NCBI GenBank assembly: GCA_029204225.1
Contig: CM055095.1
Location: forward strand, 68,222,755-68,286,754
Length of the DNA: 64,000 nucleotides
Direction of reading: 5' to 3'
From: Diphasiastrum complanatum
Taxonomy: Eukaryota; Streptophyta; Lycopodiopsida; Lycopodiales; Lycopodiaceae
Every line of letters begins with the position of its first letter. Position 1 is the stretch's first letter. Positions 11,039 to 59,078 of this stretch are shown here, one piece after another. The notes under the pieces are model-generated. The model worked only from the letters and a program-made list of their open reading frames with translations. It was not told the origin of the DNA and made no database searches. The translations under genes and the position numbers were made by a program.

Positions 11039-11160
11039 ACCACTTTATCTCATTTTCAAGCACACATTTTTCTTGCTCTCTTGGCTTTCTTAGTTTCGAT
11101 AAATGCTTTGCACTTGCGCTCGTACTAATAGTCTTTCGTATTGTCTCATTACGTTCACGA

Positions 11161-12070: not shown

Positions 12071-12246
12071 GAATGAGGATGAAGGATCTCAGGCAAGTTC
12101 TTTGTCAACAAATACTCTCATCCATGCTTATTCCCATTTCTGAATCTGTCCATTGTAATTATAACATTCTTATATAATGTATTGCAGTATGTGGTGGAGA
12201 TTGACAGTTTTGCAATGAGGAGCAGAAAATTTGGAGTACATCGTTT

Positions 12247-13530: not shown

Positions 13531-13693
13531 AAACTAGGTTGCCATGCAGATATAATAGAGTACTAATGTATAGGAATTGCAATAACGACACTAATTTCAC
13601 TTGTGTGAGCATAGCAGGATGATATCAACCTATGAAAAACAAAGGAAACTCTCTGACACTAAGGATGAAATGGTGAAAGGGGACCCACACCCC

Positions 13694-16640: not shown

Positions 16641-17269
16641 AATTTCTATGGTTTTGTTAAGCTAGATATGAAATTAAGAACAAGGAATATGAACTAAGTT
16701 TATGTAAGTTGATGTTCTTACATCTGAGATCCCTATTGGAATCCATTGTATATGTAATTGGATTTGCATAATGATAAGAAAGCATCTTGACCCCTCAGTG
16801 CTTCCGCTATTGTGTGAATGAATCTATGTGATGTAATGTTTTTCGAGCTTTGATTTAAAATCTTAATTGATTTTCATTAAGTTGATTCAAGACTAGCTTC
16901 ATGTGAATGATAAGCCAATTAATTCTTTTGGCCTTTAAGAACTTAGAACAGGCCGTCACCCCTGGAGTTCACATACAGCTGGAAAAGCGTGAAATTTGTA
17001 TCGCTTACATAAAACCAACTGCTTATTGATTTTAGTACAACATGTATATATGCATTCAGAAATCAAAGTACATGATATCAATCCTCATGATCATCGAAAA
17101 TGTAATTGTAAGTATATCAAAACATATGCACTCTACATCAATCATAAGTGATTTTCTTTATTGATGCTCTTCAGATTATGATTTAAATGCTTCAACATTG
17201 TTATTTTCTTTCAGATTTATATCCATCATGCATAAGTGAATGGGAGCTAGCACAATAACTTGCAAGAAA

Positions 17270-17475
17270 ACAAGCTGACTAGGATTATTTCTAGTTATGT
17301 GGTGGACGACACGGTAGAATGGAGCTCTAGGAATCAGCAGAGCGATTGATCTTTGATACTTACGAATATCGAGAGCCACCTGCTACAAATGTGCCTTCTA
17401 GATCTAACTGGAGGAGTAATGGCAACCGCAAGGGCTGAGGATGAGCTAGCAGAAAAGAAATTCCTCTTCGTTCTC
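17270..17475 (-). pseudogene. Histone H3-like fragment D, close relative of element A
   Basis: The minus strand matches element A 37190-37400 at the DNA level. It reads F-F-S-A-S-S-S-A-L-A-V-A-I-T-P-P-V-R-S-R-R, then after a one-base loss near 17379 D-I-R-K-Y-Q-R-S, L-L-I-P-R-A-P-F-Y-R and H-I-T-R-N. This is the tail-proximal region plus H3 helices alphaN and 1. The match ends at CAGCTTGTT, exactly where element A also leaves the H3 alignment, which points to an ancestral exon end there. The first methionine is not conserved. No other element genes are seen around it. Confidence 0.75.
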
Positions 17476-31513: not shown

Positions 31514-33292
31514 TTAACAGCTCCAAAATGACGCAGACACTAAAGGTTTGCACTTCCATTTCAACAGCAGTTTATTCTCATCTTGATCCAATCCATACTC
31601 ATTTGTAAACATCCCCAGAAGAAGCTTTGCTTGTCTACGATTGTAACCGCTTACCGCAGCTTTCCTGAATGTCCCTGCGAGTATAAGTTTACGCCAAGTA
31701 GTTCCAGTGAAGTCTCTGTTTTGAACAAGTTGGCCTTGTTGTCGGTAAGATGAATTGGTTAGAGCACTGTATATTCTATGAGCAAGATATCTACCCTCCG
31801 CAAGAAATTGGGTTGATTTGCAAGAGAATATGGCGTCCAGTGAATCGAAGATGGTATAGTAGTGCTCCAGCGTTTCGACGAAGTACCCCACAAACGTATG
31901 TGGTATGGACGTCGTCAGCTCTTCCTCCACTAAGGCAATCAATTTCGGAGAAAGCTTCTGCATGGCATTGAAAAAGGAGGAGACTGAAGCTGATGAGATG
32001 GGGGAGGCGTGCAAGAGATGGAGCATGCAATTCACCACCAGAGGCTCCCTATCTACCACGTTCAACCCCACCACGAGAAACTCGTCATCCTCCTGCTGGA
32101 TTATCGCCTGCTGGAATGAGAAGGGCAGATTGAGAGCAGCTGCACAGCGCGAGAGATTTTCTCCAGCTTCATCAACGCTGACAAGACCTCGTGGGAATTT
32201 ACAAGGGCGAGTCAAAGCTGTGATGCGTAAGTATGGAGGGCCCTCAGGCCGTGCTGCGAGATCTTGCATCAGCGATGGCCACTGCAATCCTTCCATTACG
32301 TCATAGTCAATAATGTGGAGTCTTCTTTCTCCCTTTGCAACCTCTAGGATAGCTTGATTTGCAGAAAAATAGCCGAATTTGGCGTAGGGAAAAAGATTCT
32401 GGAGCGCTTCGAAGGCGCAGAGAGATCCACCACTGCTGGGGAGGTCAGGAGCTGCTGGACTTATCCCATCAACGAGGAACTGCATGGCGTCGCAGAAGTA
32501 AGCCGCCACACGTTGGATGGTGTTGCCGGATAGGGACACCATCTCTCTGAGCCGTTCCAATATCACCGCAGTGACATCACTACGTGAAGAGGAGGAGAAG
32601 GACACTGCACTTGCGAGGAGTAGATGGATGAGCCTGAGCTCGGTGAGGTCCTCCTGGGGAAACAAACCCGCCACAGCTTGGAAGGGAAATTGAGGTAGAA
32701 GCTCAGTTTCTGCCAGCACCTCAGTGTTCACTTGTGTTGCCGTTGGCTGCAGCATAACGTCATCGATGTCAATTGGGTTTGGAGCAGAGATGTCTCTATC
32801 CATGCTATCTTGCATTTGTACAGACATAGCCTCCTGAACGCGGGATGGATCGTCTGAGGAGGTGATGCATTCCCCAGAAGAGATGGAGACACAACGTGGC
32901 GATGGAATTGGTGAACTCTGCAATCTCCCATAGTGCATCTCCAGGAGAATACTCTCCATCAAATCTGAGTTCTCTTCTGCCCGGAGTGCCTGATCCGAGT
33001 AACCAAATGTGTCGTAGGTCGAATTGGAGGCGTCACTACCATCAAATTCGCCAAAACAATCCATCCAATCATGTCCTTGCCAAAGCTGCATGGATGAGCT
33101 GCTCTTGAGCGAAGACCCGCAGCTCAAGCTAGGCAAAGAAGGCAGAGACGACTCCGTTATGGGGAAAGACTTGTTAGTGCTGCCGTTGATAGAATAACAC
33201 ATGGCTGGGCTATCTGAAAGATGGATCGCCATGATTGAACTGCTAGTACCACTGAGAGCTCTAGCTTCTTTCTGCCACACTTTACTGCCCAT
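31514..33292 (-). CDS. NSP2-like: GRAS-family transcriptional regulator, NSP2-like
   Basis: An intact, intronless protein of 592 residues from ATG at 33292. An open frame extends five codons upstream to a TTG, but the ATG in M-G-S-K is preferred. The first ~215 residues are Ser-rich and variable. The GRAS domain follows: leucine region I with L-R-L-I-H-L-L-L-A-S-A-V, a VHIID motif as L-H-I-I-D-Y-D-V then E-G-L-Q-W-P-S-L-M, a PFYRE-like V-E-T-L-E-H-Y-Y-T-I-F-D-S-L-D, and a SAW region ending W-K-C-K-P-L-V-S-A-S-F-W. The D-Y-D-x-x-E-G-L-Q-W-P-S wording is typical of NSP2. In legumes NSP2 works in the nucleus with NSP1 in symbiotic and strigolactone-biosynthesis gene control; whether this copy does so is inference. 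It is the only clearly functional gene in the window, and mobile DNA lies within about 1 kb on both sides. Confidence 0.93.
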   Translation of the reverse strand: MGSKVWQKEARALSGTSSSIMAIHLSDSPAMCYSINGSTNKSFPITESSLPSLPSLSCGSSLKSSSSMQLWQGHDWMDCFGEFDGSDASNSTYDTFGYSDQALRAEENSDLMESILLEMHYGRLQSSPIPSPRCVSISSGECITSSDDPSRVQEAMSVQMQDSMDRDISAPNPIDIDDVMLQPTATQVNTEVLAETELLPQFPFQAVAGLFPQEDLTELRLIHLLLASAVSFSSSSRSDVTAVILERLREMVSLSGNTIQRVAAYFCDAMQFLVDGISPAAPDLPSSGGSLCAFEALQNLFPYAKFGYFSANQAILEVAKGERRLHIIDYDVMEGLQWPSLMQDLAARPEGPPYLRITALTRPCKFPRGLVSVDEAGENLSRCAAALNLPFSFQQAIIQQEDDEFLVVGLNVVDREPLVVNCMLHLLHASPISSASVSSFFNAMQKLSPKLIALVEEELTTSIPHTFVGYFVETLEHYYTIFDSLDAIFSCKSTQFLAEGRYLAHRIYSALTNSSYRQQGQLVQNRDFTGTTWRKLILAGTFRKAAVSGYNRRQAKLLLGMFTNEYGLDQDENKLLLKWKCKPLVSASFWSC

Positions 33293-34372
33293 CTCTACAG
33301 ATTCCAAGCTTCAGGGCCGGCAATCATCACGTGGAGGAAATTGTTCCAAACAAGCTCATTACCTCCCTTAAACTCAACGCATGCATCTGCAACCTTCACA
33401 TTGCACAAGGTTATAAGGTGCTCCAATCACAAAAGACATTATCACTCAGAAAAGACACGCACAGAGACACAGATGCGACACAGATGCAGCAGTAGTAGCT
33501 GGCACGTTGATGCTGCATGCCCGAGAATTTCAAGCCATATTTTGTCTCAAACTAGCGGCCATTCTTGAAACTTAAGCCCAGGAAAGACATCACGCAAAAT
33601 GGGCAGTTGATCCACTATATATTATCAAACCTCTTGCTACAACCAAGCTACATCATCCAATTTCTATCATCCACTTTTATACAACTCCACCAGAATATCT
33701 CCGAGTGTGAGGTAAGGGCCATTCGCGTGGCTCTCCGCGCCTCTTTGGCATCGGTCCCATGCCCTCGAGAAATCTCATGCGTCGCATCTTGCAATCGCCA
33801 GTGCGGAGTAGACAAAAGAACAGCTGAAAAGAAATGCAGGCGGCTATTGTGCCACCCGCCGATCTTGGACCGCGTCCCTCGCTCTCCTCTCACTCATAGG
33901 AACGATCATCCATCCATCCATCTACCGTCTTCCCTCCCCCCAATCCCTACTTTTCAAGGTTTGGCAGTTTCAAGATTATTTAGGGTTCAGCTAAATGTGT
34001 GCACATCTCTAATTAGCAAACCTCAAACTCAATCTTTGAGCCAGCTTGAGCTCGTAACACTAACACACCTATTACAGGAGTTTCGAGCACCAAAAAGGCC
34101 TTTTGTTAAGATGTTGTTTTTGACTTTTTAACTATTCGACGTACACTTGGCCCAATTATATATTTACACCTGTGAAAGACCGTAACGTTGTTTGCCGATC
34201 GAATTTTTCTTGAAACTTTTCGATCATATTTTTATACAATTCAAAACTCCTGCCGGGCATGGTCTTGACTTGTGATTGGACCGTAATCACTGCCCGTGAG
34301 TTTCCTGAGTGTTCGGGACCTAACACTTGTGGTTAAAGTAAGTCTATTTTGATCTAACTGTAGTTAGAGTAT
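33293..34372. promoter_or_regulatory. Upstream region of the GRAS gene
   Basis: About 1.1 kb without a gene, partly GC-richer than the surroundings (33700-33890). On the minus strand TAATATATAG at 33615-33624 could be a TATA box about 320 bp before the ATG; this is weak. The plus-strand frame 33565-34131 shows no family resemblance. Confidence 0.35.
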
Positions 34373-34484
34373 ATGATTTATGAAAGACCGCTAGCATTTA
34401 TTACAAATTTGGTTTTTTATTTTCATACTGATTCATCTACTTTTAGTTTCAAACTCTATTGTTCATCTTCTTTTAACTTTGCAA

Positions 34485-35796
34485 TGGCTTCCGGAAGCCG
34501 TAGACCACGAAGCAATATTGTCTCAGTTTCTGTTTGTAATGAAAAAGACTCTGATGGCTCTTGGATACCATGTATCTATAAAAAATTTCATGGTAAATTA
34601 AAAAGAGAATAAAAAATGGATTATAGGAGCTTTTGGAAAGGTAGAATTTTGAGTGGAAGGCGTAGGTTCAAAATGACAGACTCAAATGCAATTGTAAGTT
34701 TGGGAGAATTTTTTGCTTTGAGCTTTTCATCAATCATTTAGACGTGTATCTGAGTATTTAAATGATATAGAGTTTTATGGGTTTGTGCAGATTTGTACAT
34801 CAGGCATAATCGAATGGCAACCTATACAATCCCTTGTAAACATCATGGACGTTATTCATTCTGATAATGGTCTTCTACAATACAAGAACCACTCCACGAG
34901 GTCACTTTTGGATTCTTGTATTTTCTTCTATGATTCATCTTACACACCATCCAGTTTAGGTGGAAGATTAGAGACGATATCATTACCCTCTTTCTCAAGC
35001 GAAGAATAGATTCCTCTGGATTCCACCATAGCAGAGAGCTTTCGATCAAAGTTTTTTATGGACATTCAAAACTGTATGAAATGTAGCACAGGTTCAAAAA
35101 ACAATACATTGCACTGGTTTCTGCCTTTTGCGATGTTTGTAGATTTTTTTATTGTGTGTAATATTCGTAGAACAGCGACAATGTTTATTTGTAGTGATTT
35201 AACAGACGATATGTTATCAAGCCTCCTTGATGATCAATGGGATAAAAAGAGTAATGACAATATCGAGTGCATAGTTAATAAATCGTCAATGAAATTTAGA
35301 TATCTTATAGAAAAACAAATGCTTTCTTTAACATTTTATAATAGAAGATGGTCCAAAGTTGGCAACGAATGGAAAGCATTGGATCAGGATTTTACAGTGA
35401 ATCATCAAGATCAAATAGAAATCCAAGTGAAGCAAAATAATTCTACTATTACAACAATTGAGGTGGAGGAATATTGGACACTCGATCACATTCGATCAAA
35501 GCCTACCTTGCTGCAATATGAAATTCCTGAAAACTTATTTTATTTAGACTTATTTGAATGTTTTCGGTATTGCAAGATTGCATTTAAAATAATCTCAATG
35601 CTGATAATGTTTAACAAGTTTGTTTGATGTACAGGTAAGACCCAGACAAGAAAATCGCATACAGTGCAAGGATTTAAATAGAAGCGTCAAAAATTGTCGA
35701 AACTGCATAAACATTGGGATGGTAGACATGCAACAACAATGTACAATACTGTTAGGATCTAGTGCAGTATGCAGATCACATAATCAATCACCGTAG
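34485..35796 (+). pseudogene. P1 protein of element A (unknown function)
   Basis: Plus-strand pieces read as one gene: a possible first exon at 34485-34612 (M-A-S-G-S-R-R-P-R-S), a main part at 34785-35580 with a TAG/TAA break near 35008, and a last exon starting at 35635 (after TGATGTACAG) and ending at TAG 35794-35796. Landmarks shared with element B are F-F-Y-D-S-S-Y-T-P, I-R-R-T-A-T-M-F-I-C, I-E-K-Q-M-L-S-L-T-F, L-D-Q-D-F and V-E-E-Y-W-T-L-D, then R-P-R-Q-E-N-R-I-Q-C-K-D-L at the C-terminus. About 330 residues. No known domain recognised. It ends 45 bp from the convergent P2. Confidence 0.6.
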
Positions 35797-35841
35797 ACAC
35801 TCTTCAGAAGCTCTCAAAGATGGCATAGCAAAAGCTTTAGA

Positions 35842-37412
35842 TTACAAAGAAACACTGTTAAACTGCAAGATAGAACATTCATGTATTAGTAATGGCTAAA
35901 AACATCAACAAAATAGAAAACTAATCATGATTCCAAAAATAAGAATAAACAAAATTAATTACCTTAGAAATATCAACATCTTCCTGAAGGTTGAACCACT
36001 CAAAAAATAACTTTGCATTATATAATGTGTACCACCCATAACTGAATGAATCCTTTTGCTGGGGTGACTGCAAAAAAATTCAGCACACAAGAAATCAATT
36101 ATGAAATAGAATGAATTAGAATGAAACAAATACATTAGAATACTGATGTCAAAATGTTGTTAAGAAAGACATAATTTACCTCCAAACTAATGATCTGCCA
36201 GTCCACTGAACGGGGAACATCTGTTGGAATATATTTACTTAAACATGGCAAGTATATATCTACATCCTTATGCATATTGCTAGCCGAGTTCATCTTGAAA
36301 CAAAAACCTTTAGCAATATTATCTGCAGATCTTTTAATAGAGATCAGGTTTAAACTCCAGTGGTCACTGCAAAATAAGATAGAAATTTCATTAGCTGCAA
36401 TTCTAAGAACTTTTTTCATTTATAATGCCAATGATAAAGCATTTAACATGTACTTGGTATGATAAGGCACGACCAGGTATTTTGTTGCTGGTGTGAGTCC
36501 ACTAGTCAGACATTATGACAATGTGTCGTTATTCTCCTTGAAAGGCCTGAAGCAAAAAGTTACTGAGCACCAGCAATTCATTGGATGAATCTCTTGCAAT
36601 GTCATATTGCAAGAGTGTAATCCCAGACTCTATCACAGGATCACTAATAGAAGCCCGTCTATTTTTAAGATCCAAACAATCGATAACTCTATAATTTGTA
36701 CTAAAGTCAATTTCCTCTATTCTGAAACAAAATGGAGTACCAATTCTATCTACAGCATCGGCTATGTCCTTCTGAAATTTTAGATAATCATCGGAATCTA
36801 TATGTGTATAAAGATTTGAAGGAGCAAGAGGAGGTGGATGAGTAATATCTACAAGAATTACAGGAGTATCCAAAATCGATGTAGCTATATTTACAACCTT
36901 ATCTAGGGCAACATTATCTACATTTGCATCCGGGTTAGGCTTGGCAGAGTCGGTGGTATCTACCCTCCTTACTTTTGGGGCTCTCTTGGGGGTTGTCTAC
37001 TTCCTAGGACGCTTGGTAGGAAGATCAATCCTATCTAGAGGAACAGGTTTGGGAGCAGCAGGCTGAGATATGTGTAAATTGCAAAATCTCTCCCTCATTC
37101 TCATCAGTAACTGAAGGTCCTTAGGCATAATGGTGACTCTCTTAGAATGAATAGCAAGCAAAAATGGATCTTTAAAAGAATTATGAATCTAACAAGCTGG
37201 CCGAGATCATTTCTAGTTATGTGGCAGATGGCACGATAGAATGGAACTTTGGGAATTAACAAAGTGGTTGATCTCTGATACTTACGAATATCAGAGAGGC
37301 ATCTGCTGCTGTTGCGTCTTCTAGATCTAACCGGAGGTGTAATGGCAACCGCAGGAGCTGAGGATGAGCCAGCAAAGAAGAAATCTCTCCTTGTCTGCTT
37401 TCTCCTATCCAT
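35842..37412 (-). pseudogene. P2 of element A: histone H3-like domain fused to C48 (Ulp1-type) protease
   Basis: Starts ATG at 37412 with M-D-R-R-K-Q-T-R-R-D. Residues 41-66 match H3 helices alphaN and 1 (D-I-R-K-Y-Q-R-S-T, P-F-Y-R, H-I-T-R-N). After a gap and a frame change near 37190 the H3 end returns: A-I-H-S-K-R-V-T-I-M-P-K-D-L-Q. From there one frame runs through a basic linker (one TAG at 36999-36997) to I-L-D-T-P-V-I-L-V-D and the protease. Exons 36366-36180 and 36067-35963 carry D-H-W-S-L-N and S-P-Q-Q ... S-F-S-Y-G-W-Y-T-L-Y-N. C48 enzymes cut SUMO-like isopeptide bonds with a His-Asp-Cys triad; here Cys has become Tyr (codon 36040-36038), so it is inactive. Most of H3 helix 2 is missing, and a one-base gain near 36545 also breaks it. 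The last B exon is replaced by a short tail ending at 35842. Confidence 0.75.
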
Positions 37413-37599
37413 GGAAGTATACTCGGGGATATCGCACTTGTTCGTGACGATGAGGATAAGAAGGGGAAGAATATGAAGCGTTCATAGAGGAGCGATATGT
37501 ACGGTATATAGAAGAGAGGCAAGTCCAATATGAGGAGACACGCAGGTAGAAATATCGGACCTGTGCACATGGAATGCAGTAAGCAGAATATCGATTACG

Positions 37600-38208
37600 A
37601 AGGGGGCGCACAAGTGCGATATGCAAAGCGAAAAAAAAAGTGAAAAAAATTCATCGGAGTTTGTGATTTTATATCACGGTTCGCACGTGCGAAAGAACGT
37701 CATGTCACACGTGCGAGTTGTCTAGTCATCAACACGTGACAACAAGTCAGCGAATGATCATTTGACACATGTCAGATTGTCATTTCACATGTGTGGGATT
37801 GTACGACCAAATGCGAGAGCGACACGTGTTGTCCATCCGACTAATGAACACGAGGCATGTGTCCTTGTGTCATTTCACACGTGTCCAGGTGTCACCTCAC
37901 ACGTGCTAGTGCATGCAGACCAATAAAAAATGAACACATGTCTGTTGACCGTTGACCATGCGTGTGAAAATTCAGTATAAAAGGCACGAAACCAGATTAA
38001 TTTTTTACTTTTTTCTTTCTCAAAATTCACATCATATCGCTCTTGTGTGCGCGCTTTGTTGTCCATTTTATTCATCAATCCTACTTGCGCACAAGTGCGA
38101 TATTCAGTTGCTACCTGCTATACATATCCCTCTTGTGCGCGATCTTTACAGTTAGTTTTATTTCATTTTGTCTCCCTCGTGCACAGGTGCGATCTCTGTC
38201 GTAGTGCC
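37600..38208. promoter_or_regulatory. Divergent P2/P3 promoter region of element A
   Basis: About 600 bp between the P2 and P3 starts, crowded with CACGTG and CACATG cores (about ten between 37680 and 37940, many as CACACGTG). Copies of a palindrome-like GCGCACAAGTGCGATAT flank it (near 37607, 38088 and others). Element B has the same arrangement at 56260-56700. CACGTG is the plant G-box bound by bZIP and bHLH factors. A pair TTGACCGTTGACC at 37943-37955 matches W-boxes. Alternatively these repeats could be transposase-binding sites. Confidence 0.5.
37976..37983 (+). promoter_or_regulatory. TATA box for P3 of element A
   Basis: TATAAAAG lies 226 bp before the P3 ATG. Element B keeps TATAAAT at the same place (56483-56489, minus strand), followed in both by GGCACGAAA-like DNA. 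Confidence 0.6.
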
Positions 38209-39777
38209 ATGGCCTCTTCCTCAAGATCCACACGAGATTCGGGCCTAAGTTTAATTTTTATGGAATTTGAGATTATTGAATATCTAGACTACTTCCATAG
38301 TCTATTCAGGCCATATTTACATGTTTTTAAGATTGCACAACCAAATGTTGACGTATTTTATGAACATTATGTTAGATTCTATACTCAGTAAGCTTGTTAT
38401 CTTCATAGATTCACTCTCGTACATGCATTATACTGATCTTGTTCATTTCTTCCCAGCTTTCAAACATAGACTAGATAGAATGTTCACCAAATTGTTTGAT
38501 CTTTTTAAAAGCAGTTCAATGTGTCCTTCTTGCAACAAGAAATGTCAATTGGTTGAATACCAGAGTGGTTTTGGACTTTTCATGTTAGTTCAGATCCTGG
38601 ATGATGAGGAAGTTTCTGTTGCTGACCCTCCTATTGCATCATCCTCTATTCAGTCAGCTATTAAGGATATTAGTCACTTCCTAATCGACACCCATGATAA
38701 GGATAGTGACTTTATTGATGTAAATACTGATGTGCTTCGGGATTCTTTTATTGGCCAAAATACATTTGCTGATGAATTGATCCCTATAGAGGAGTCAAAA
38801 TGTCTTTTCAATTTGCCAATATATTATGTAAATGATGATGTATATTTTACTACAGCTGATTTATGTCAATTTTTTGACTATCATAAAGATGAAGTTCTAC
38901 GTTTATTATCCGGCACAATTTCTGAATTCTTCGACTTTGTAGATTTTGAAACAGATGACCTTGTTGTTGGAATTGATTATGATGATGAGGAGGGACTTAT
39001 GACTGGTGAAGAGTGATTGACTAAGACTTTATCAAATATTGCGGAGGATGGACGAGACAGACCATCCAATGAAAAAATTAATGGACGAGACAGACCATCC
39101 GATGAAGAATTCATGACATTTCAATCCCAGATGGGCTTCCCTCATCTATCATTAATGCATTTTACAGATGATTCCACTTCAGTAGGTGGTCATTATATTG
39201 GTCATCCTGATCTGGTTGCTGCTGATGATGAAGAATGTGTAAGTGTTTAAACTTCCTTGCATTAGAATGTTCTTAACTACTGAATGTATTTTTTCTAATA
39301 TATTTCTTATTGCAGGATGCTCTCATAATTCATGACTTTGCTGCGAAACGAGGTGGTTGCAGACAATATGCATCCTCGTTCCAGAGAGATAGTGGACTTG
39401 GCCACTGTCTTAGGCATTTCTTGAAGAATGAGATCTATATTGCTCATTCGAAACTGAGCATAGTTGGGGAGAGTCTGATAATGGTAGTTAAAGCTTTATC
39501 ATTTTATCTAGGAGGACATAAATTTGTTAAGAAAAATAAGATCATTTTCGTCAAAAGATCTTATGTTTTGAACATTCTAGGTTTTACTGATGGGAATGTT
39601 CCTTTAAGGAGCTCTCATTATTCATTGTACTCTACTTATATTGAACTTAGTAGAAATAAGAATAATGCACATCTATTAGATGCATACTCTAGAAGAAAAT
39701 TTTTTCATGACAATACTACCATAGAATCTATCACACAAGCTGATGATGAATGGTGGACACTTTGTATTTTGTTATAA
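38209..39777 (+). pseudogene. P3 protein of element A (unknown function)
   Basis: ATG at 38209 (M-A-S-S-S-R-S-T-R), shared with element B. A frame break near 38390 joins the second frame (to 39016), which carries a C-P-S-C-N-K-K-C zinc-ribbon-like pair, an acidic region and V-N-D-D-V-Y-F-T-T-A-D-L-C-Q-F-F-D-Y. Exon 1 ends at 39238 (GT donor). Exon 2 runs 39316-39777 and reads D-F-A-A-K-R-G-G-C, F-Q-R-D-S-G-L-G-H-C-L and I-I-F-V-K-R-S-Y-V-L. About 500 residues. The F-T-T-A-D-L region also occurs in locus C. A stop at 39014-39016 and a tandem 33-bp duplication (about 39046-39111) are private to A. It converges on P4. I cannot assign a function. Confidence 0.6.
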
Positions 39778-39965
39778 TACAATTGATACATTTACATTGA
39801 GTATTTCTCCTCTCTCTTGTTCCATGAATTTGCATGCAATTCTGAACATGTCACACTTTTACATTGAGTATTTCTCCTCTCTTGTTCAATGAATTTGCAA
39901 GCAATTCTGAACATGTCATAATTTGATGACAATGATGATTGAATGTCTTTGTTATCTTCTGTATG

Positions 39966-42500
39966 TCAAATCTGAACTCTACGGTAGAACCACTGAAACA
40001 ATTGACAAATGTAGTTTCGTTTTTCATTGGTTCCTCCATGTTGTGTATTTCGATGAAATGCTGCTCGTGCTTGCCCATGCGACTTCTCCATCCCTTGTGA
40101 TGACCATACACTCAACCTTCCATATGTGTTTGCAAAAAATGTTGTATGATCTCTTAGTATGTGCTGCATATGTCAAAACCATAATGTTAGTCTATGTTTG
40201 AATCTAAATATGTATGGAAAATTGAAAGCATCTTGAAGAATTTATACTAACCATGTAATGAGTGATGTAATCTTCTCCCCATGCTTTTGATACTGCATTA
40301 ACAAACTCGACACAAGTCCTTTGTACAACTTTCTTATCAATATCAAAGTATTTATCTTTTTTTAAAATAGCAATCATACTATCAAGCTTCTTCCATACAT
40401 CAACTTTTAGTACTCTGGTTTTGCCGTCTTTCTCAAAGTCCTGAGTGGCACCAATAATATTTGTCCAGACTGAGTGTTGAATATTAGAAGCCTTACCAGT
40501 ATGATTTGATAGAAAATGACGTGCTTTGGCTCCTCTTGTGCTTGGCTTAGTTGGCATGTTCCCATTCTTTCCTGAAAGCTTTTCATCTTTTTGAATTTTG
40601 ACATGTCCCTTATGAAGTATTGCTTTTGATAAAACATCTTCTAATCGAGAGATAGCTTCCTTTGCTAATGATGTTGGCTTTGTATTCCAAGCAAAAACAA
40701 TATGAAGATAAATGATCTTTTCTATTCATCTAACTTCTGCATGAAGAGTACAAACATGCACATTTTTCAAGGGGATAGGCAGCACAGGCTTCCAGTTTGG
40801 ATCTGCATATTCTCTAGTAATTCCTGTACTCCTAGTAACATCTTTTGCCATTTTCATGCAGTACAAACAAGGGTGTTTTGATGTAGCACCGTGAGAGACA
40901 TTATACATACATTTCAATGCTTTCAAATCACCTGCTAAGTGTCATTCAACATTGAAGTCTCCAACTCCTGGAACATTGAGAAGTTCTCCATCCATATGGT
41001 CCTTGATGATCCTAGGATAAGATGTCCTTTAGAATATCCATGATAATATATCATGATCCTCCTTCAGCACCTGTCCAAAGAATTAATCAGACTTAGTTAT
41101 CAAAGAATTAATATTATTCAATGAATGTAATGTAATAATGAGGCTAGTTACCTGAAACGCTGCCAACCACCATATATCATTTTCTGACTGGACACTGAAT
41201 CTAAAATTTTCTTGGTCCTTTGTTTGTGATAGTGCACCATTCGTGAGAGTTATACTAACCTTCTCCATCTTTTGCCCTTTCACAATTTCTGACTATAATT
41301 ATTTTGTCATTCACCTTTTCAAAGGTTATATTATAGAATGTGACGATGTATCTCAGCAAGTAATTTAGATCAACAAATAAGTTGTTTGATGAATTATAGA
41401 ATATTGATCTTCCATCAGTTTCATACACCACCTCAATATGAAATGGAGTTCCAGTGATCTTATGCATACCTATGTTTAATGTATCCATCTCTTTCTTCAA
41501 GTGATATGTCCTAGGGATTGGGACTTTTCTAATTTGAACTTGCTTAAAAGCTTCTCTAATGAGTTTAAATATTGTTGCATATGCTTCCTTGCTAATACCT
41601 GCAAAATCACAAGCACCTTGAACTATAGTCTTATCTAAAAGAATTTGAATGTCCACCATCAAAGACTCTGTTATTTTACACTTTACATTTGAACTCCTAT
41701 TGTTCATCATGATACGCTCAGTGGATTTGCCTGTCAATATTGTGCCCAATGACATTTCTAGTGAAGCATTGTCTTTAATATTCTGAGGAGCTACTAATGC
41801 AGATAGTTAACAGAATATCACCATAGCTGAAATTAAATCCAAATGTCATTGAAAAACCTACAAAAATCAGAATATGCTTACTTGAATACACGGTTCCTTC
41901 TATTTCAATAACCTCCTTTTGAAAGCATTTGAATATCCTTGCAACTTTGTCGCTTTCACTTCTTACTTTCAGCTTTTTTATTTGCCAATTCCACATCCTT
42001 CAATAATTGTAAGTTTTCAATACGAATAGATTGTAAGATTGATTGCATTTGCTCTAGTTCTGATTTGATATTGATTGTTATCTTCTGTAATGATTCATTA
42101 TTTTTTTTAAGTTGTTCATTTTTTTCTAACGTCTTTTGGAGATGACAATCTCTCTTCTGACAATAAGAGGATATCCGAATCAACTCACCTTCTAAAAAAT
42201 GAACTTTATTCATATAAAGTTGTTTTCCGTGGTTCTACAATCTTTCACAATATCCTAGTAATTCACTATGTCCATTGCATATCCATGTAACTAAATGAAT
42301 TATTGAGGAGAATGTGGGATGTGTCAAAGTGCTTGGATCTTGTGGATATAATGTTCCATCTATCCACAAATCCAAGTTTTTCTTTCCTTCTTCTTTGTAA
42401 CGAGAATGATCCTCAACAAATATTTGAATTCTTTTGCCTCCTCTTCTCTGCAAAGGTGCCAAATCAATAGAGAAACCAAATGTAGATCATACAATGTCAT
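39966..42500 (-). pseudogene. P4 of element A: DDE-type transposase
   Basis: Minus strand, about four exons. The first (42500-~41910) is basic with a coiled-coil-like Glu/Lys/Asn stretch. The second includes I-R-E-A-F-K-Q-V-Q-I-R-K-V-P-I-P-R-T-Y. The third ends at 40252 and carries A-G-D-L-K-A-L-K-C (Asp codon 40929-40927), K-H-P-C-L-Y-C and V-H-V-C-T-L-H. The last (40163-39966) reads V-W-S-S-Q-G-M-E-K-S-H-G-Q-A-R. An Asp, CxxC, HxxxxH, Glu series is the layout of DDE transposases with a zinc insertion, as in RAG1/Transib. The first Asp, present in element B, is removed here by a 17-bp deletion near 41293. Stops occur near 40726 and 40955. It would cut and join the element's ends in the nucleus; this copy is dead. 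Confidence 0.7.
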
Positions 42501-43080
42501 CATCAGGAAAAACAATAGAGTAATCAGTTGTGTCAAAGTACTATGACCAAATTCTATGTAACAAAACAAAATACTCATCTTTGATTATATTATATACGCT
42601 ATACGATCAATCCAATCTCCATGCTTGTATGCTTGATTCAAATTTGGAAATGCCGCTCATTTTTTCATTCCAATAGGTAGTTGGCGCTCATATTTCCATT
42701 CCAATGTAAAGATGACATTCATAATTGGAGATGGCACCCATATTTTCATTCTCGTGGAAGGAATGCATATGTAAACATTTTGCTATTTTTTCTGATTCGG
42801 ATTTGGGGATGGTGATCATATTCTAGATCTAGTGAAAATATTGCCCTTTTCGTAACCAATGGAGGGACTATTTTTGAATTTAGTCAAGTTATACTGCGAA
42901 CTGTTTATAGTTCTTAACAGTGACTATAGACACTGTGGTTAGATCATTGGGAGTTGGGGAGGCCTCGGGAGTGGTGGGGGCAAGCAAATAAACAATATTG
43001 TTTTTTTTATTTTGATATTTTTCTATATCTTACATGGCATTCCTTAAAGGGTCTTTTTGATATTGAGAACTCCTCTAATG
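42501..43080. other. Subterminal region of element A, transposase side
   Basis: Non-coding but closely matched by 52829-53350 in reverse orientation. Recurrent words are CATTTTTTCATTCC, GGCGCTCATATTTCCATTCC and GGCACCCATATTTTCATTC, a possible set of subterminal repeats. The match ends at the shared CTTAAAGGGTCTTTTTGATATTGAGAAC. Confidence 0.55.
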
Positions 43081-43924: not shown

Positions 43925-44190
43925 GGCTGTTTATGGCCGAAGGCCTGGTCTATTGCATCCGATAGAGGAGAGAAGGCTATTTATAGCCAGACATGGTTTA
44001 TTGCATCCGATAGAGGAGAGAAGGCTATTTATAGCCAGACATGGTTTATTGCATCCGATAGAGGAGAGAAGGCAGGAAGGGACGTCCGAAGGCTATTTAT
44101 AGCCAAAGGTCTGGTTTATTGCATCCGACAGAGGAGAGAAGGCAGGCAAGGGTGTCTGAAGGCTGTTTATGGCCGAAGGCCTGGTTTATT
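43925..44190. repeat. Minisatellite with GGCTATTTATAGCC palindrome
   Basis: Five units start with GGCTATTTATAGCC or GGCTGTTTATGGCC, continue with ...TGGTTTATTGCATCCGATA, and end GAGGAGAGAAGG. Unit length alternates between about 50 bp and about 67 bp (the longer carry an extra GGACGTCCGAA-type insert). The open frame across it is a consequence of the repeat. Confidence 0.85.
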
Positions 44191-52828: not shown

Positions 52829-53356
52829 CATTAGAAGAGTTCTCAATATCAAAAGACCCTTTAAGGAATGCCATGTAGGATATACAAAAATATCAGAATA
52901 AAAAAAACAATATTGTTTATTTGCTTGCCCACACCACTGCCAAGGCCTCTCCAACTCCCAATGATCTAACCATAGTGTCTATAGTCACAGTTAAGAACTG
53001 TTAACAGTTTGCAGTATAACTTGACTAAATTCAAAAATATTCCCTCCATTGGTAACGAAAGGGACAATATTTTCACTGGATCTAGAATATGACCGCCATC
53101 CCCAAATTCGAATTAGAAAAAATTGCAAAATGTTTACATATACATTCCTTTCACAAGAATGGAAATATGAGCGCCAACTACCTATTGGAATGAAAAAATG
53201 AGCGGCATTTCCAAATTTGAGTCAAGCATACAAGCATGGAGATTGGATTGATCGTACATAGTATATAATATAATCAAAGATGAGTATTTTGTTTTGCTTC
53301 ATAGAATCTGGTCATAGTACTTTGATGCAACTGATTACTCTATTATTTTTTTGATA

Positions 53357-54965
53357 ATGACATTATATCATCTACATGTGGATATCCTTATTGATTTGGC
53401 ACCTTTGCACAGAAGAGGAGGCAAAGGAGTTCAAATTTCTACTGAAGATCGTTCTCGTTACAGGGCAGAAGGAAAGAAAAACTTGGATTTGTGGACAGAT
53501 GCAACATTATATCTACAAGATCCAAGCACTTTGACACATCTAACATTCTCTTCAATAACTCATTTAGTTACATGGATATGCAATGGGCATAGTGGATTAC
53601 TAGGATATTGTGAAAGATTGCAAAACCATGGAAAACAATTTTATATGAATAAAGTTTACTTTTTAGAAGGTGAGTTAATTTGGATATCCTCTTACTGTCA
53701 GAATAGAGATTGTCATATCCAAAAGACGTTAGAAGAAAATGAACAACTTAAAAATAATAATGAATCTTTACAGAAGATAACAATCAATATCAAATCAGAA
53801 CTAAAGCAAATGCAATCAGTCTTACAGTTTATTCGTATTGAAAACTTACAATTACTGAAGGATGTGGATTTGGCAAAGAAGAAGACTGAAAGTAAGAAGC
53901 GAAAGCGACAAAGTTGCAAGAATATTTAAACGCTTTCAAAAGGAGGTTATCGAAATAGGATCCGAGCATTCAAGTAAGCATATTTTGAATTTTGTAAGTT
54001 TTTCAATGACACTTGGATTTAATTTCAGCTATGGTGATATTCTGTTAACTATCTGTTTTTTTTGCAGATCTGCATTAGTAGCTCTTCGGAATATTAAAGA
54101 CAATGCTTCACTAGGAATGTCATTGGGCACAATATTGACTTGCAAATCCACAGAGCGTATCATGATGAACAATAGGATTTAAAATGTAAAGTGTAAAATA
54201 GCAGAGTCTTTGATGGTGGACATTCAAAAAAATTTAGATAAGACTATAGTTCAAGTGGGTGCTTGTGATTTTGCGAGTAATAGCAGGGAAGCATATGCAA
54301 CAATATTTAAACTAATTAGAGAAGCTTTTAAGCAAGTTCAAATTAGAAAAGTCCCAATCCCTAGGACATATCACTTGAAAAAAAAGAGGGATACATTAAA
54401 CATAGGTATGCATAAGATCACTAGAACTCCATTTCATATTGAGGAGGTATATGAAACTGATGGAAGATCGATATTCTATAGTTCATCAAACAATTTATTT
54501 GTTGATCTAAATTACTTGCTGAGATACATCGTCACATTCTATGATATAACCTATGAAAAGGTGAATGGCAAAATAATCATAGTATTTAAGTTAGATGAGT
54601 CAGAAATTGTGAAAGGGTAGAAGATGAAAAGGGTTAGTATAACTCTCATGAATGCTGCTCTATCACAAACAGAGAACCAAGAAGATTTCAAATTCAGTGT
54701 CCAGTCAGAAAATGATATATGGTGGTTGGCAGCGTTTTAGGTAACTAGCCTCATTATCACATTACATTCATTGAATAGTATTAATACATTGTAAACTAAG
54801 TCTGATTAATTCTTTGGACAGGTGCTGAAAGAGGATCATGATATATTATCATGGATATTCTCAAGGAAATCTTATCCTAGGATCATCAAGGACCATATAG
54901 ATGGAGGACTTCTCAATGTTCCAGGAGTTGGAGACTTCAATGTTGAATAGCACTTAGCAGGTGAT
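53357..54965 (+). pseudogene. P4 of element B: transposase, N-terminal two thirds
   Basis: Matches A P4 from M-T-L-Y-H-L to A-G-D-L-K. The coiled-coil-like region (E-E-N-E-Q-L-K-N-N-N-E-S) ends in basic K-K-R-K-R. An exon boundary lies near 53975 (AAGTAAGC), with an acceptor at about 54068. The first catalytic Asp is preserved in F-K-L-D-E-S-E-I-V-K-G (codon 54594-54596). The second Asp (G-D-L-K, about 54967) is the last shared residue. Beyond it the CxxC, HxxxxH and Glu parts are deleted. Stops at about 54179, 54618 and 54738 break the rest. Confidence 0.65.
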
Positions 54966-54969
54966 TTGA

Positions 54970-56256
54970 AAAAATTTATGTCCTCCTAGATAAAATGATA
55001 AAGCTTTAACTGCCATTATAAGACTCTCCTCGACTGGGCTCAGCTTGGAATGAGCAATACAGATCTCATTCTTCAGAAAATGCCTAAGATAGTGGCCCAG
55101 TCCACTGTCCCTATGGAACGAGGATGCATATTGTCTGAAACACCTCGTCTCACAACAAAATCATCTATTATGAGAGCATCCTACAATAGGAAATATGTTA
55201 GCAAAAACACACTCAGTGATTGAAAACATTCAAATGCAAGGAATATTAAACACTTACACATTCTTCATCATTAGCAGCAACCAGATCAAGATGATCAATA
55301 TAATGACCACGTATTGAAGTGGAATCATTAGTGAAGTGCATTAATGATGGATGAGGGAAGCCCATCTAGGATTGAAATGTCGTGAATTCTTCATCGGATG
55401 GTCTGCCTCGCCCATCCTCAGCTATATTTGATAAAGTCTTATTCAGGCATTCTTCACCAGTCATAAGACCCTCCTCATCATCAAAATCAATACCAGCAAC
55501 AAGGTCATCTGTCTCAAAATCTACAAAGTTGGAGAATTCGAAAATTGTGCCGGATAATAAACATAGAACCTCGTCCTCACGATAGTTAAAAAATTTACAT
55601 AAATCAGCAGTAGTAAAATATACATCGTCATTAACATAATATATAGGCAAATTGAAAAGACATTTCGAATTTCCCATAGATTTGGATTCATAATCAGATG
55701 TATTTTGGCCAATGAAAGAATCCCGGAGATCATCAGTATTTACATCAATGAAGTCACTTTCTTTATCAGGAGTGTCGATAAGAAAGTAACTGATATCCTT
55801 AATGGCTGACTGAACAGAGGTGAAAAAAGAGGGTCAGCAACAGGAACTTCATCATCATCTGGGATCTAAACTAACAGAAAAAGTACAAAACCACTCTGAT
55901 ATTCAACCAATCGACATTTCTTGTTGCAATACGGACACATTGAACTACTTTTGAAAAGATCAAACAATCTGGTGAACATTCTATCCAGTCTATGTCTAAA
56001 AGCTGGGAAGAAATGAACAAGATCAGTATAATGCATGTACTAGAGTGGACCTATGGAGAAAACCGGCTTGCTAAGCATATCTTTGAATCTGACATACTGT
56101 TCATAAAATACGTCAGAATTTGGTTGTGCAGTCCTGAAAACATGTAGATATGGCCTAAATAGATTGTGAAAGTAGTCTAGGTTTTCTAATAATTCCACAT
56201 TCACTCACAAATGAGCTCAAGCCTGATTCTCACGAGGATGATAAGGAAGAGGCCAT
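54970..56256 (-). pseudogene. P3 of element B (unknown function)
   Basis: ATG at 56256 (M-A-S-S, then a stop eight codons in). It shares with A F-R-P-Y-L-H-V-F, Y-M-H-Y-T-D-L-V-H-F-F-P-A-F, C-P-Y-C-N-K-K-C and V-N-D-D-V-Y-F-T-T-A-D-L-C-K-F-F-N-Y. Exon 1 ends at 55258 and exon 2 starts at 55180; both splice sites match A. B keeps about 20 residues in Y-V-R-F-K-D-M-L-S-K-P that A has lost. Exon 2 is cut by the deletion after about 210 bp. Confidence 0.6.
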
Positions 56257-56259
56257 GGC

Positions 56260-56697
56260 AGTAACGTGAATATCGCACTTGTGCACGCGGGAGAATTGAA
56301 CCAAAACTAATTATCAAAATGGCGTAGAAGATGGATATGTATGGCAGACAGATACAGAATATCGCACTTGTGCGCGAGTCGGTATAGTTGCAAGCAAACG
56401 GACAGCAATGAGCACGCACAAAAGCGATATGTCGCGAATTTCGAGAACTGAAAAGGTAAAAAATTAATCAGTTTTCGTGCCATTTATACTAAGCTTTTGC
56501 ACGTGTGGTCACGAGACTTAGGACACGTGTCTACTTTCAATTGGACAACAGACACATGCACGTGTGAGATGACACCTTCACACGTGTGAAATGGCACCTG
56601 GACACATGTCACGTGTTCATTCGATTGCTCAAAAACACGTGTCGCTCTCACATTCGATCGTACAAATTTCACTGTGACGCCTATCCCATAATCCATT
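56260..56697. promoter_or_regulatory. P2/P3 promoter region of element B
   Basis: Matches A 37800-38200: two copies of AATATCGCACTTGTGC (56268, 56356), TATAAAT for P3 at 56489-56483 (minus), and a run of CACGTG/CACATG cores at 56500-56645, including TTCACACGTGTGAA. The part closest to P2 was lost with the H3 segment. Confidence 0.5.
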
Positions 56698-57913
56698 GTA
56701 GATAACGCTGCTGTTGATAATGTTGTAAAGATAGCTACCTCTATTTTGGATACTCCTATAATTGTTGTAGATACTACACATCCACCTCCTCCTCCTCGTC
56801 CCAATTTTTATACATATATAGATTCGAATGATTATCTTAAATTTGAGAAAGACATATCGGATGCTATAGATACAATTGGTACTCCTTTTTGTTTTAGACT
56901 AGATGAACTTGATTTTAGTATAAATTTTAGAGTTCTAGATTGCCTGGATCTCAAAGACAGACGGGCTTCTATCAGTGATCCTGTGATAGAGTCCAGGCTT
57001 ACACTCTTGCAATATGACATTGCAAGAGATTCATCAAATGAGTTGCTGGTGCAGAGTAACTTCCTACTTCAGGCCTTCAAGGAGAACAATGACACATTGT
57101 CACAGTGTTTGACAAGTGGATTTACACCAGCAACAAAGTATCTGCTCATACCTTATCATACAAAGTAAGTTATATTAAATGCTTCTTGTTGTTTTATGCA
57201 TTAACATTGGCATTGTCAATGAAAATAATACTCAGAATTGCAACTAAAGAAATTTCAATCTTATTTTGCAGTGACCACTGGAGTTTAAACCTGATCTCTA
57301 TTAAGAGATCTGTAAATAATATTATTAAATATTTTTGTGTGAAGATGAATTCAGCGAGAAATACGCATAAGGATGTAGATATATACATTCCATATCTAGG
57401 TAAATATATTCCTACAGACGTTCCCCATTCCGTGGACTGGCAGATCGTCAGCTTGGAGGTAAACTTTGTCTTTCTTAATGGCATTTTGAAATCAGTATTC
57501 TAATGAAATATTTTTAATCTATCTCATTCTGTTTCATAATTGATTTCTTGTGTGCTGAATTATTTTGCAGTCACCCCAGCAAAATGATTCATTCAGCTGT
57601 GGGTGGTACACATTGTACAATGCCCAAGTTGTTTTTTGAGTTGTTCAACCTTCAACAAGATGTTAATATTTCTAAGGTAATAAATTCTGTTTATTCTTAT
57701 TTTGGAATCATGATTAGTTTTCTATTCTGGTGATGTTATTGGCCATTACTAATATATGAATGTTCTATTTTGCAGTTTACACTTCCTGAGTACACATCAA
57801 ACCAGGTGTACAGATTTAGACAAGAAATTATCCTGAGTATACTGGCTAGGGCAAGGCTTCAGCCTCCCGTTATTGATGATGGTGCAAAGGATGATGTAGT
57901 TGTACTAAATTAA
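56698..57913 (+). pseudogene. P2 of element B: C48 (Ulp1-type) cysteine protease
   Basis: Four exons with GT/AG borders: 56698-57164, 57272-57458, 57571-57676 and 57776-57913 (TAA). The first begins in frame V-D-N-A-A-V-D but has no start because the H3 part is deleted. It reads F-D-L/I-D-F-type and R-A-S-I-S-D-P-V-I-E-S stretches shared with A. Catalytic His is in N-D-H-W-S-L-N (CAC 57276-57278), the Gln region is S-P-Q-Q-N-D, and the nucleophile is in S-F-S-C-G-W-Y-T-L-Y-N (TGT 57598-57600), intact here. The acidic member is less certain (N-S or H-K-D-V-D). A one-base insertion in exon 3 shifts the frame after Y-N-A. Exon 4 gives F-T-L-P-E-Y and ends D-D-V-V-V-L-N. Confidence 0.75.
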
Positions 57914-58108
57914 GATCAGAAAAAATATAGATAGCATAGAACAAAAATACATGTATAGACTTCATAGAAAAATATACATTGATATATGAAATGGTGCTCC
58001 AGTTTATGAATTTGGAAGCACAAAATACATTTATAGATGCCCAACTTGGGCTTTCATTTATTGAATGCAAGAGTGTATACACAGACTTTTACTAAAGTTT
58101 ATTTGGAA

Positions 58109-59002
58109 CTATTGTTCTCCCACAATGGTGATTGTTGTAGGTAGATCTTTGCAGCACATTATCAACTCCTGTCTTTTTCGCATCTGTGACATGGCAAATA
58201 TTAGTGAATGTGCAATTGTAAATGATGATATTTTCTATTATTTTGTTCTATTTTGAAATGGCAATAAACATAAAGTACTTACAAGTCTTCCGTTGATGAT
58301 AAATCTGAAATATGTTGGTAGATTGGTTTGTAATAGCATGAGCTCTATTCTGATAAAATCAAGCTTCCAGTGCTCTTCCACCTCAACCATAGTCAAATAT
58401 TCCTCATTGTAGATAATGCTTATCTCCATTCGGTTTGTGTGACCATTTAGTTCAAAGTCTTGATCCAGTGGTAGCCATGTACCTTCAATTTTCTTGTATC
58501 TCTGGTAGCTAAATGTGAGACTGAGCATTTGCTTTTCGATATGATAATGAAAGATCATTGAAGACTTTTTAATCCTGCATTCTATGTCATTATTTGTTTA
58601 ATTATTCCAGTCTTGATCCATGAGATTTGACAAAATCTCATGTGATAAATCCTTGCAAACAAATAAAGTTGGTGTCCTACGAACACTAGCACTCGAGAAA
58701 AAATCAACAAATGTATGCAATGAGATAAACCAACTTAGGTGAACAATCTTCGAGCCTGTGCTTATCTTCATAGCAAATTTAATATCAATGAGTAGCTTGC
58801 ATCTCAAGGATTCAAAAACAATGCTGTCAGGAGTAGGCCACTCATCAGTTTGAAAACTAGGCAATGGAATTGCTTTGAGCTTGCCAAAACCTCCATCTAT
58901 TTGTGGCGTATATAAAGATTCATAAAAATAGAAACCACAATCTGCAAGTTCCTTTGGACTTTGTGATTGATTGTGATACTGTTCTGTTTGCATCACACAC
59001 AT
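58109..59002 (-). pseudogene. P1 of element B (unknown function)
   Basis: Minus strand. The main exon, about 59002-58283, has C-G-F-Y-F-Y-E-S-L-Y-T-P, R-R-T-P-T-L-F-V-C, I-E-K-Q-M-L-S-L-T-F, L-D-Q-D-F and V-E-E-H-W-K-L-D. A break lies near 58590. A GT donor at 58283 joins an exon 58183-58109 reading M-R-K-R-Q-E-L-I-M-C-C-K-D-L-P and ending G-E-Q-stop, equivalent to the last exon in A. The N-terminus is lost. It ends about 195 bp from the convergent P2. Confidence 0.6.
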
Positions 59003-59078
59003 TTCTTACGTTATACTGAATTTCAATTACTCTAACATGGATTTTTAGGCGACACCAGCAAGTAACAATTCTGACTAA

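Follow-up and report, generated by a model that had tools for sequence, protein, structure and literature searches.

A four-gene DNA transposon of Diphasiastrum complanatum with a histone H3–Ulp1 protease fusion, a predicted RAG1/Transib-like transposase and insertion without target-site duplication

Copies of the element in the window

The window, that is, the whole stretch of 64,000 nucleotides of Diphasiastrum complanatum DNA that was analysed (contig CM055095.1), contains two inverted copies, A and B, of a DNA transposon, together with a remnant, D, of the same family. In both copies the genes have split coding regions and follow the order P1> <P2 P3> <P4, as the initial annotation had proposed, and A and B share 72–93% identity over the matching blocks.

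34071–43080, no strand assigned: copy A; homology to genomic copies from 34071, right end sharp at 43080
34484–35543, plus strand: P1 of A; about 47% amino acid identity with P1 of B
35963–37021, minus strand: C48 (Ulp1) part of P2 of A; PF02902 match of a composite with C48 from B
37022–37412, minus strand: N-terminal H3 part of P2 of A; PF00125 match of the composite; full-length in locus L031 and many genomic copies
38209–39774, plus strand: P3 of A; two exons, CxxC...C cluster
39969–42468, minus strand: P4 of A, predicted RAG1/Transib-like DDE transposase; several exons, nine homologs, fold match of a homolog
43046–43080, minus strand: right terminal inverted repeat of A, 35 bp; 35/35 repeat match, CATTAG... 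on the minus strand
52829–59035, no strand assigned: copy B, inverted; right end at 52829, other limit from the initial annotation, P1 match stopping at 59002
52829–52862, plus strand: right terminal inverted repeat of B; 94% of 35 bp
53390–54971, plus strand: P4 of B; C-terminus deleted
54972–56195, minus strand: P3 of B; incomplete
56662–57910, plus strand: C48 part of P2 of B; DHW and QNDSFSCG motifs, H3 missing
58289–59002, minus strand: P1 of B; homology match
17032–17474, minus strand: remnant D; left-part sequence (17032–17268) fused to an H3 N-terminal piece (17269–17474)

The right ends first given for the two copies, 43080 and 52829, stand, whereas A starts further left than had been thought, at 34071. 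The left part of A represents a second P1 subfamily and lacks the left terminal repeat, and a search inside the window copies found no terminal repeat pair, because the left end is missing from both. The H3 and C48 motifs that had been attributed to P2 in both copies are present in A, whereas in B the H3 part is deleted: A 36947–37799 has no counterpart there, positions 56665 and 56672 of B being adjacent at this point. A second deletion in B removed the segment matching A 39528–40921, with the C-termini of P3 and P4. Copy A is also damaged, with H3 helix 2 missing or frameshifted, the protease Cys replaced by Tyr, and stops interrupting P3 and P4. A GRAS gene adjoins copy A. A further locus, C, is not claimed as a family member, its P3 similarity being weak (E 0.13). 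P1 and P3 are putative accessory proteins; the predicted structure of P3 (mean pLDDT 33.5) was unusable.

Ends, gene linkage and abundance in the genome

The element extends beyond the window as a DNA transposon of which the window copies are decayed representatives. Its termini, read from genomic copies, are perfect 35-bp inverted repeats, CATTAG...CTAATG, and three end pairs are separated by 9.3–9.45 kb. The left repeat was located in genomic copies outside the window, and the same right end occurs in copies E1, E2, E4, E6–E10 and B. The exact 45-bp end sequences occur 367 and 465 times genome-wide and the reversed control not at all, so that the repetition of the ends goes beyond chance; in the 1.74-Gb genome, exact ends number in the hundreds and first-look candidates in the thousands. 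Chimeric or truncated copies are common, and among the copies read over their full length none carries the complete set of four undamaged genes. Left ends are clustered within parts of C1 and C3, where two C3 places have common flanks and an inverted duplication accounts for one pair in C1. A larger element of 32 kb, considered from the spacing of left ends, was rejected for the single site read, which consists of the element and its flanks duplicated in inverted orientation. Searches of a viral collection gave 20 pattern matches, none of them to a relative, and a plasmid search matched nothing.

The H3, C48 and P4 segments travel together elsewhere in the genome, the opposite of what the initial annotation had named as its refutation. 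Independently obtained lists of H3-C48 and P4 matches coincide on the same strand, 4.26–4.80 kb apart, in at least eight places, and five of ten loci chosen by P4 alone carry both H3 and C48. Locus L031 contains C48, H3, P3, P4 and a piece of P1, flanked by inverted repeats.

Insertion without target-site duplication

A target-site duplication was sought by comparison with empty sites, and its length was 0 bp in all three cases. When the two flanks are joined, those of C2:29743085 and C1:48368841 align with uninterrupted sequence at many places with no net gap, and those of C4:68089672 at one place, a diverged paralog. A TCA direct repeat at C1:48368841 was discarded as a duplication, since the best uninterrupted place (98% identity) covers the same 100 bases, and the repeat was therefore not made by the insertion. 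No target consensus was apparent by eye around eight insertion points. The absence of a duplication is most simply explained by two strand transfers directly opposite each other.

The P4 transposase

The assignment of P4 as a DDE transposase was borne out by its catalytic triad and by the RNase-H-like fold predicted for a homolog. Nine homologs were found (E 1e-106 to 5e-68), and in all nine, as well as in the window composite, the D residues of KLDE and A[GA]DLK are invariant. The E of WSxQGME is present in both of the two homologs that reach that far, and seven matches to this motif, including A, were found among the examined loci. The cysteines of a CxxC motif lie at D+20 and D+23, both being kept in six of the nine homologs and one being changed in P0003, P0006 and P0011; HxxxxH occurs in the two homologs long enough to include it, and reads HILRDH in P4 of A. 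The spacing of D, D, CxxC, HxxxxH and E is nearly RAG1-like, and for a relative with 38% identity, whose structure was modelled at low confidence, matches to RAG1 and Transib scored well above other folds.

This fold match, taken together with the motif spacing, places P4, on predicted structure, in the CACTA-Mirage-Chapaev-Transib (CMCT) group, as a lineage for which no name was found. The relationship is claimed for the transposase and not as membership in a named CMCT family, the target-site duplication being 0 bp. At the sequence level, no Pfam transposase model matched P4 (E≤5) or its nine homologs (E≤1), and neither RAG1 nor Transib appeared at E≤10 among the chains matched by a profile of the nine homologs, only two of which reach the E residue.

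The H3-C48 fusion protein

P2 is a single protein in which an H3 histone fold continues in frame into a Ulp1/C48 protease. A composite of the H3 part of A and the C48 part of B matched Histone (PF00125, E 7e-13) and Peptidase_C48 (PF02902, E 1e-9) in Pfam. With the whole fusion as query, which demonstrates many fusions and not their share among all copies, 142 of the 142 best genomic matches covered both domains, and 40 of these were stop-free; the Pfam score and the genomic fusions rule out a chance motif or an oddity of the window. Purifying selection on the H3 fold is clear (dN/dS about 0.13), and the reading of H3 as a passenger was rejected on the dN/dS values; C48 is also under selection, with values of 0.30–0.44.

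H3 chains in the PDB match over residues 4–89 (E 2e-22), and the best 60 matches listed are to H3, not to CENP-A. Compared with canonical H3, loop 1 has one extra residue, a longer loop 1 being a trait of CENH3, and the position of the domain in an H3 tree is unsupported (support 0.12). In the protease, the His and Cys motifs DHW and QNDSFSCG are present; Cys and the Gln motif are intact in four of six copies, with Tyr in place of Cys in the other two, and His is kept in ten of twelve. No clear candidate for the catalytic Asp was seen by eye.

Proposed role and alternative explanations

Taken together, the data are probably best explained by a cut-and-paste, four-gene transposon with CATTAG ends, measuring about 9.3–9.45 kb where both ends are intact, and a RAG1/Transib-like transposase, inserting without duplication, in which the fusion protein most likely serves anti-silencing. 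P4 would bind the CATTAG ends, excise the element and join it to a new site; the H3 part would most likely be incorporated into nucleosomes, or join an H3-H4 complex, at the element or its target, and the protease would remove SUMO from silencing proteins there, helping the element to remain expressed and to reach its high copy number. Our best guess for H3-C48 is thus a chromatin-tethered deSUMOylase that counteracts silencing. A bolder version is put forward tentatively: a RAG1-like plant lineage may build its own H3-SUMO-protease into nucleosomes at its copies, unlocking chromatin and escaping SUMO-dependent silencing, with a blunt, duplication-free joining for which the searches made revealed no RAG1/CACTA-type parallel.

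It is rather doubtful, although conceivable, that H3-C48 takes part in the transposition reaction, where it would be a nucleosome-like partner that shapes the ends or steers insertion to certain chromatin, much as the PHD finger of RAG2 reads H3K4me3 (PMC8355894, excerpt). The RAG1/Transib-like transposase, the RAG2 precedent, the constraint on H3 and the left-end clusters in C1 and C3 agree with such a role; however, these clusters may be segmental duplications, in view of the shared C3 flanks and the inverted C1 duplication, the eight insertion points have no consensus by eye, and the protease would be unexplained.

An ordinary CACTA/EnSpm element with captured pieces of host H3 and Ulp1 as passengers is unlikely. 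CxxC, HxxxxH and mostly CA..TG ends are indeed shared with the CMCT group (PMC12730594, excerpt), and gene capture is frequent in plants (PMC13317346, excerpt). Nevertheless, the missing Pfam transposase match of P4 and its homologs and the 0 bp found at three sites, where CMCT elements would leave 2–5 bp, argue against it, and a passenger would not keep the dN/dS of H3 or 40 stop-free fusions. In favour of CACTA it should be added that, to our knowledge, the PDB holds no CACTA structure, so none competes with RAG1 in the fold match.

A dead or structural C48 half is likewise improbable; here P2 would act solely through H3, as a histone decoy, for example, or a centromere-type histone. The unclear Asp, the Tyr in two of six copies and the longer loop 1 would fit; against them stand the retention of Cys, the Gln motif and His in most copies and the dN/dS of C48, while the domain has no supported place in the H3 tree and its best 60 listed PDB matches are to H3, not CENP-A. 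Finally, an artefact of recombination between copies, suggested by the many chimeric or truncated ones, is a very improbable source of the missing duplication, as an exchange between copies would not bring back the uninserted sequence left and right of the junction, which refutes it for C2:29743085 and C1:48368841, and C4:68089672 also has its one uninterrupted match, in a diverged paralog.

Comparison with known systems

The supposition that the family was undescribed can hold at the level of the lineage, no catalogued family carrying H3 having been found in the papers searched or in Pfam; it does not extend to the transposase, whose predicted affinity is with the known CMCT group. Enzymes of chromatin marks are known transposon cargo, whereas no core histone cargo was found in the literature searched. 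A selected H3-SUMO-type-protease in a high-copy element makes it testable whether silencing can be defeated by a self-supplied part of the nucleosome, and the presence in a plant of a RAG1-like transposase that inserts without duplication would widen the range of the ancestral enzyme family of V(D)J recombination.

CACTA/EnSpm elements have CACT(A/G) termini and a 3-bp duplication, in contrast to CATTA and 0 bp here. With the CMCT group as a whole, including Plavaka, ESTA and Lanisha, the element shares the DDE triad, the C(2)C and H(3-4)H motifs between the second D and E (here CxxC and HxxxxH) and termini of the CA..TG type, which most members have, and some members likewise bear epigenetic cargo, TET/JBP in fungi; it differs in the histone-protease cargo, the lack of a Pfam match and the 0-bp duplication, which in CMCT elements is 2–5 bp (PMC12730594, excerpt). 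The likeness to RAG1, RAG-like transposons and Transib lies in the predicted fold, an alpha-helical insert in the DDE domain, a CxxC that follows the second D, an HxxxxH ahead of the E, and the CA...TG ends. In contrast, no sequence match was obtained at E≤10 with the homolog profile, no RAG2 was seen, the host is a plant, there are four genes, the duplication is 0 bp instead of the 5 bp of Transib, and the copy number is high, autonomous Transibs typically being present in one or few copies in animal genomes (PMC4411706, excerpt).

VANDAL and Kaonashi MULEs are likewise plant DNA transposons in which an accessory protein contains a Ulp1 domain, and anti-silencing is known for VANC proteins; however, these MULEs lack TIRs and use a different transposase, no MULE transposase was detected by Pfam in P4 or its homologs, and the excerpted sources describe no histone domain for them. 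Spy elements, relatives of PIF/Harbinger, also perform cut-and-paste without target-site duplication (PMC4482050, excerpt), but belong to another transposase group and target AAATTT, a motif not seen here. Those KDZ, Harbinger and MuDR elements that contain TET/JBP or SET genes resemble the present element in carrying chromatin-acting cargo (PMC12730594, excerpt), which in their case consists of enzymes and not of a core histone.

Structure of the element in the window

A GRAS-family gene and a copia-like retroelement integrase mark the window as plant DNA, and within it the two inverted, decayed copies of one DNA transposon (A and B) are accompanied by two more places with H3-like coding sequence (remnant D and locus C).

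11160-13533: locus C, H3-like gene at 13533-12250, minus strand (PF00125, E 6e-27 over the fold)
17032-17474: remnant D, two parts of the same element joined
31517-33310: GRAS-family gene (PF03514, E 3e-82)
34071-43080: copy A
52829-59035: copy B, inverted relative to A

Blockwise identity between A and B is 72-93%, and tblastx and tblastn place the genes of A in the order P1 (+), P2 (-), P3 (+), P4 (-), with B in mirror order. Of the two copies only A has the H3 part of P2, B being without a counterpart of A 36947-37799; the stretch corresponding to A 39528-40921 is likewise missing from B. Because its left part (34071-35744) is built from a second P1 subfamily (~47% amino acid identity to the first), present also in the joined, reverse-complemented loci L013/L014 (1591-3174), the copy appears chimeric between two subfamilies. 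Units of ~48 bp (AGGCCTGGTCTATTGCATCCGATAGAGGAGAGAAGG) form a short tandem array between A and B at 43941-44154. The H3-like gene of locus C, with the N-terminus MACTKQTTRQ and a long low-complexity stretch containing stops, faces a plus-strand frame with weak P3 likeness (E 0.13), and the locus may be an older relative of the element with a stand-alone H3.

P2 as a histone-protease fusion

The H3 part is interrupted in A; a composite that takes H3 from A and C48 from B matches Histone (PF00125, E 7e-13) and Peptidase_C48 (PF02902, E 1e-9), and other genomic copies carry H3, a basic linker and C48 in a single frame or nearly so, with a frame shift after the linker in L031, a locus chosen by its left end. 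Among the copies examined that possess the N-terminal C48 part, H3 lies next to it in A, in the loci chosen by P4 exon E3/E5 (one duplication), E4, E7 (twice) and E8, in L031, and in both arms of an inverted duplication; B lacks H3. When the genome was searched with 271 residues covering H3, linker and C48, all 142 scored matches (the best of 8955 first-look candidates) cover both H3 and C48 (query start 1-7, end 270-271), which attests many fusions, not their share among copies, as a fused query by its nature ranks whole fusions highest. By hand count, in which a few contigs are possibly duplicates, 40 of the 142 are stop-free, their open frames running to 307-448 residues.

Against the PDB, the H3 fold hits H3 chains at E 2e-22; its loop 1 is one residue longer than in canonical H3. 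A 37-sequence tree, from which three proteins without the trimming motif were left out, does not discriminate between an H3 and a CENH3 ancestry of the domain. Of the six copies bearing the protease Cys motif, four retain the Cys and two (A, L031) have Tyr; the His is retained in 10 of 12 copies. These counts take E3 and E5, and likewise both arms of one inverted duplication, as separate copies. The Asp is not obvious.

Selective constraint

Pairwise dN/dS, medians (Nei-Gojobori; minimum of 60 shared codons; dS>0.05); values are rough, the copies being related and partly dead
Region; median; copies; pairs
H3 with tail and linker; 0.22; 11; 49
C48; 0.44 and 0.30; 11; 52 and 53
P3; 0.44; 11; 38
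P4; 0.55; 21; 187
P1; 0.62; 11; 23

Pooled over the six common elements (A, E4, E5, E7, E8, L031), the similarly rough dN/dS values are: H3 fold 0.13, H3 including its tail and linker 0.23, C48 0.39 and P4 0.49. The lower ratio of the H3 fold than of P4 comes from dS (0.59 versus 0.14), dN being similar (0.079 versus 0.071), and for this reason P2 may belong to older lineages or to recombined ones. Whichever reading of dS holds, codon comparison points clearly to purifying selection on H3 itself.

Association of the genes

The initial annotation made joint occurrence of H3, C48 and P4 in other genomic copies a test of its proposal, and the loci compared here bear that occurrence out. Five of ten loci chosen by P4 exon alone (E3, E4, E5, E7, E8, with E3 and E5 one duplication) contain H3 and C48; E10 has a C48 piece only, and the truncated or internally deleted E1, E2, E6 and E9 have neither. 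Among four loci chosen by left end alone, H3-C48 is found in L031 and the C1:21.36-Mb locus, L029 has P1 and part of C48 in the 10 kb examined, and L030 has none of the element genes within 10 kb. When the best 150 P4 matches and the best 142 H3-C48 matches were paired by eye, they coincided on the same strand, 4.26-4.80 kb apart, at at least eight places (C8 18.04 Mb, C1 60.1, C13 10.57, C5 33.24, C7 16.73, C19 24.03, C22 33.27, C9 2.78), a ninth being E7 on C13 with a spacing of 6.6 kb. Two end pairs enclose an H3-C48 match (C2:49368771-49378105, C4:23168740-23177510), and a P1 piece, C48, H3, P3 and P4 lie between both ends of L031; none of the copies read through from one end to the other retains an intact set of four genes.

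Termini and insertion

The right end falls at the identical base in A, B, E1, E2, E4 and E6-E10 (E3 and E5 are truncated there), and the left end is its mirror, L031 carrying a perfect 35-bp repeat, CATTAGAGGAGTTCTCAATATCAAAAAGACCCTTT, across 7756 bp. Exact 45-bp ends number 367 (left) and 465 (right) genome-wide, with 0 for reversed controls. Among the places listed (about the first 100 of each end), 11 pairs were matched by eye, four of them in one C3 cluster; the eight pairs whose ends were read span 1.2-11.8 kb (three of them 9.3-9.45 kb), and the C3 pair among these has flanks in common with L031. Left ends cluster at C1 64.97-66.68 Mb, C1 95.0-99.9 Mb and C3 57.59-57.92 Mb, the last of which looks like local duplication since two of its places share flanks. 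At C1:21359432-21391595 (L032-L035), a 95% inverted duplication ~33 kb across comprises one element together with the flanks outside it and has retroelements at its centre. Like its arms, A and B lie in opposite orientation, and such palindromes might arise by aberrant transposition.

At seven of the eight pairs read, the flanking sequence shows no direct repeat of 2-12 bp; the eighth (C1:48368841) is flanked by a TCA repeat. Joined 100-base flanks were compared with uninterrupted paralogous places. For C2:29743085, 38 of 40 scored places (the best 40 of 336 candidates, 86-92% identity) match the full flanks, bases 1-100, over a length of exactly 100 bases; another matches bases 3-100 over 98, and the last shows a 1-base net gap. 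For the TCA site, the best place has 98% identity over exactly 100 bases; excluding the element's own two flanks, 13 of 27 places cover at least bases 1-98 with no net gap, seven have net gaps of 1-4 bases (four of these at 73-75% identity) and seven are partial. The C4:68089672 flanks align gap-free at the junction to window ~8050-8155; this paralog is diverged, and the alignment has a gap of 6 bases farther to the right. At a fourth site, C1:20721697, the left side rests on 7 bases. Because uninterrupted places match the joined flanks, insertion at the tested sites neither duplicates nor deletes bases. Comparing the insertion points of eight element sites by eye showed no consensus. The element at C4:68089672-68090887, 1216 bp with the same ends and too short for the gene set, has flanks that fit duplication-free insertion.

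Comparison with known systems

The literature searches turned up no transposon-borne histone, and H3-C48 queries against the protein database gave no H3-C48 fusion among their 2 and 36 hits, which were H3-type proteins matching in the H3 part; this database apparently holds many plant sequences as unspliced frames only, so that absence of the fusion elsewhere is weakly indicated. Spy elements, which share the absence of target duplication with this element, belong to the PIF/Harbinger group (PMC4482050).

The sequence data establish the ends, the gene set, the fusion, the constraint and the lack of target duplication at the tested sites. P4, with its predicted RAG1/Transib-like fold, would cut and join, and H3-C48 would act on chromatin. 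A direct role of the fusion in transposition complexes or target choice, for which RAG2 reading H3K4me3 offers a comparison (PMC8355894), is less favoured. Anti-silencing by a histone-tethered deSUMOylase is favoured over it, on the analogy of the VANC/Ulp1 proteins that VANDAL and Kaonashi MULEs carry (PMC13317346).
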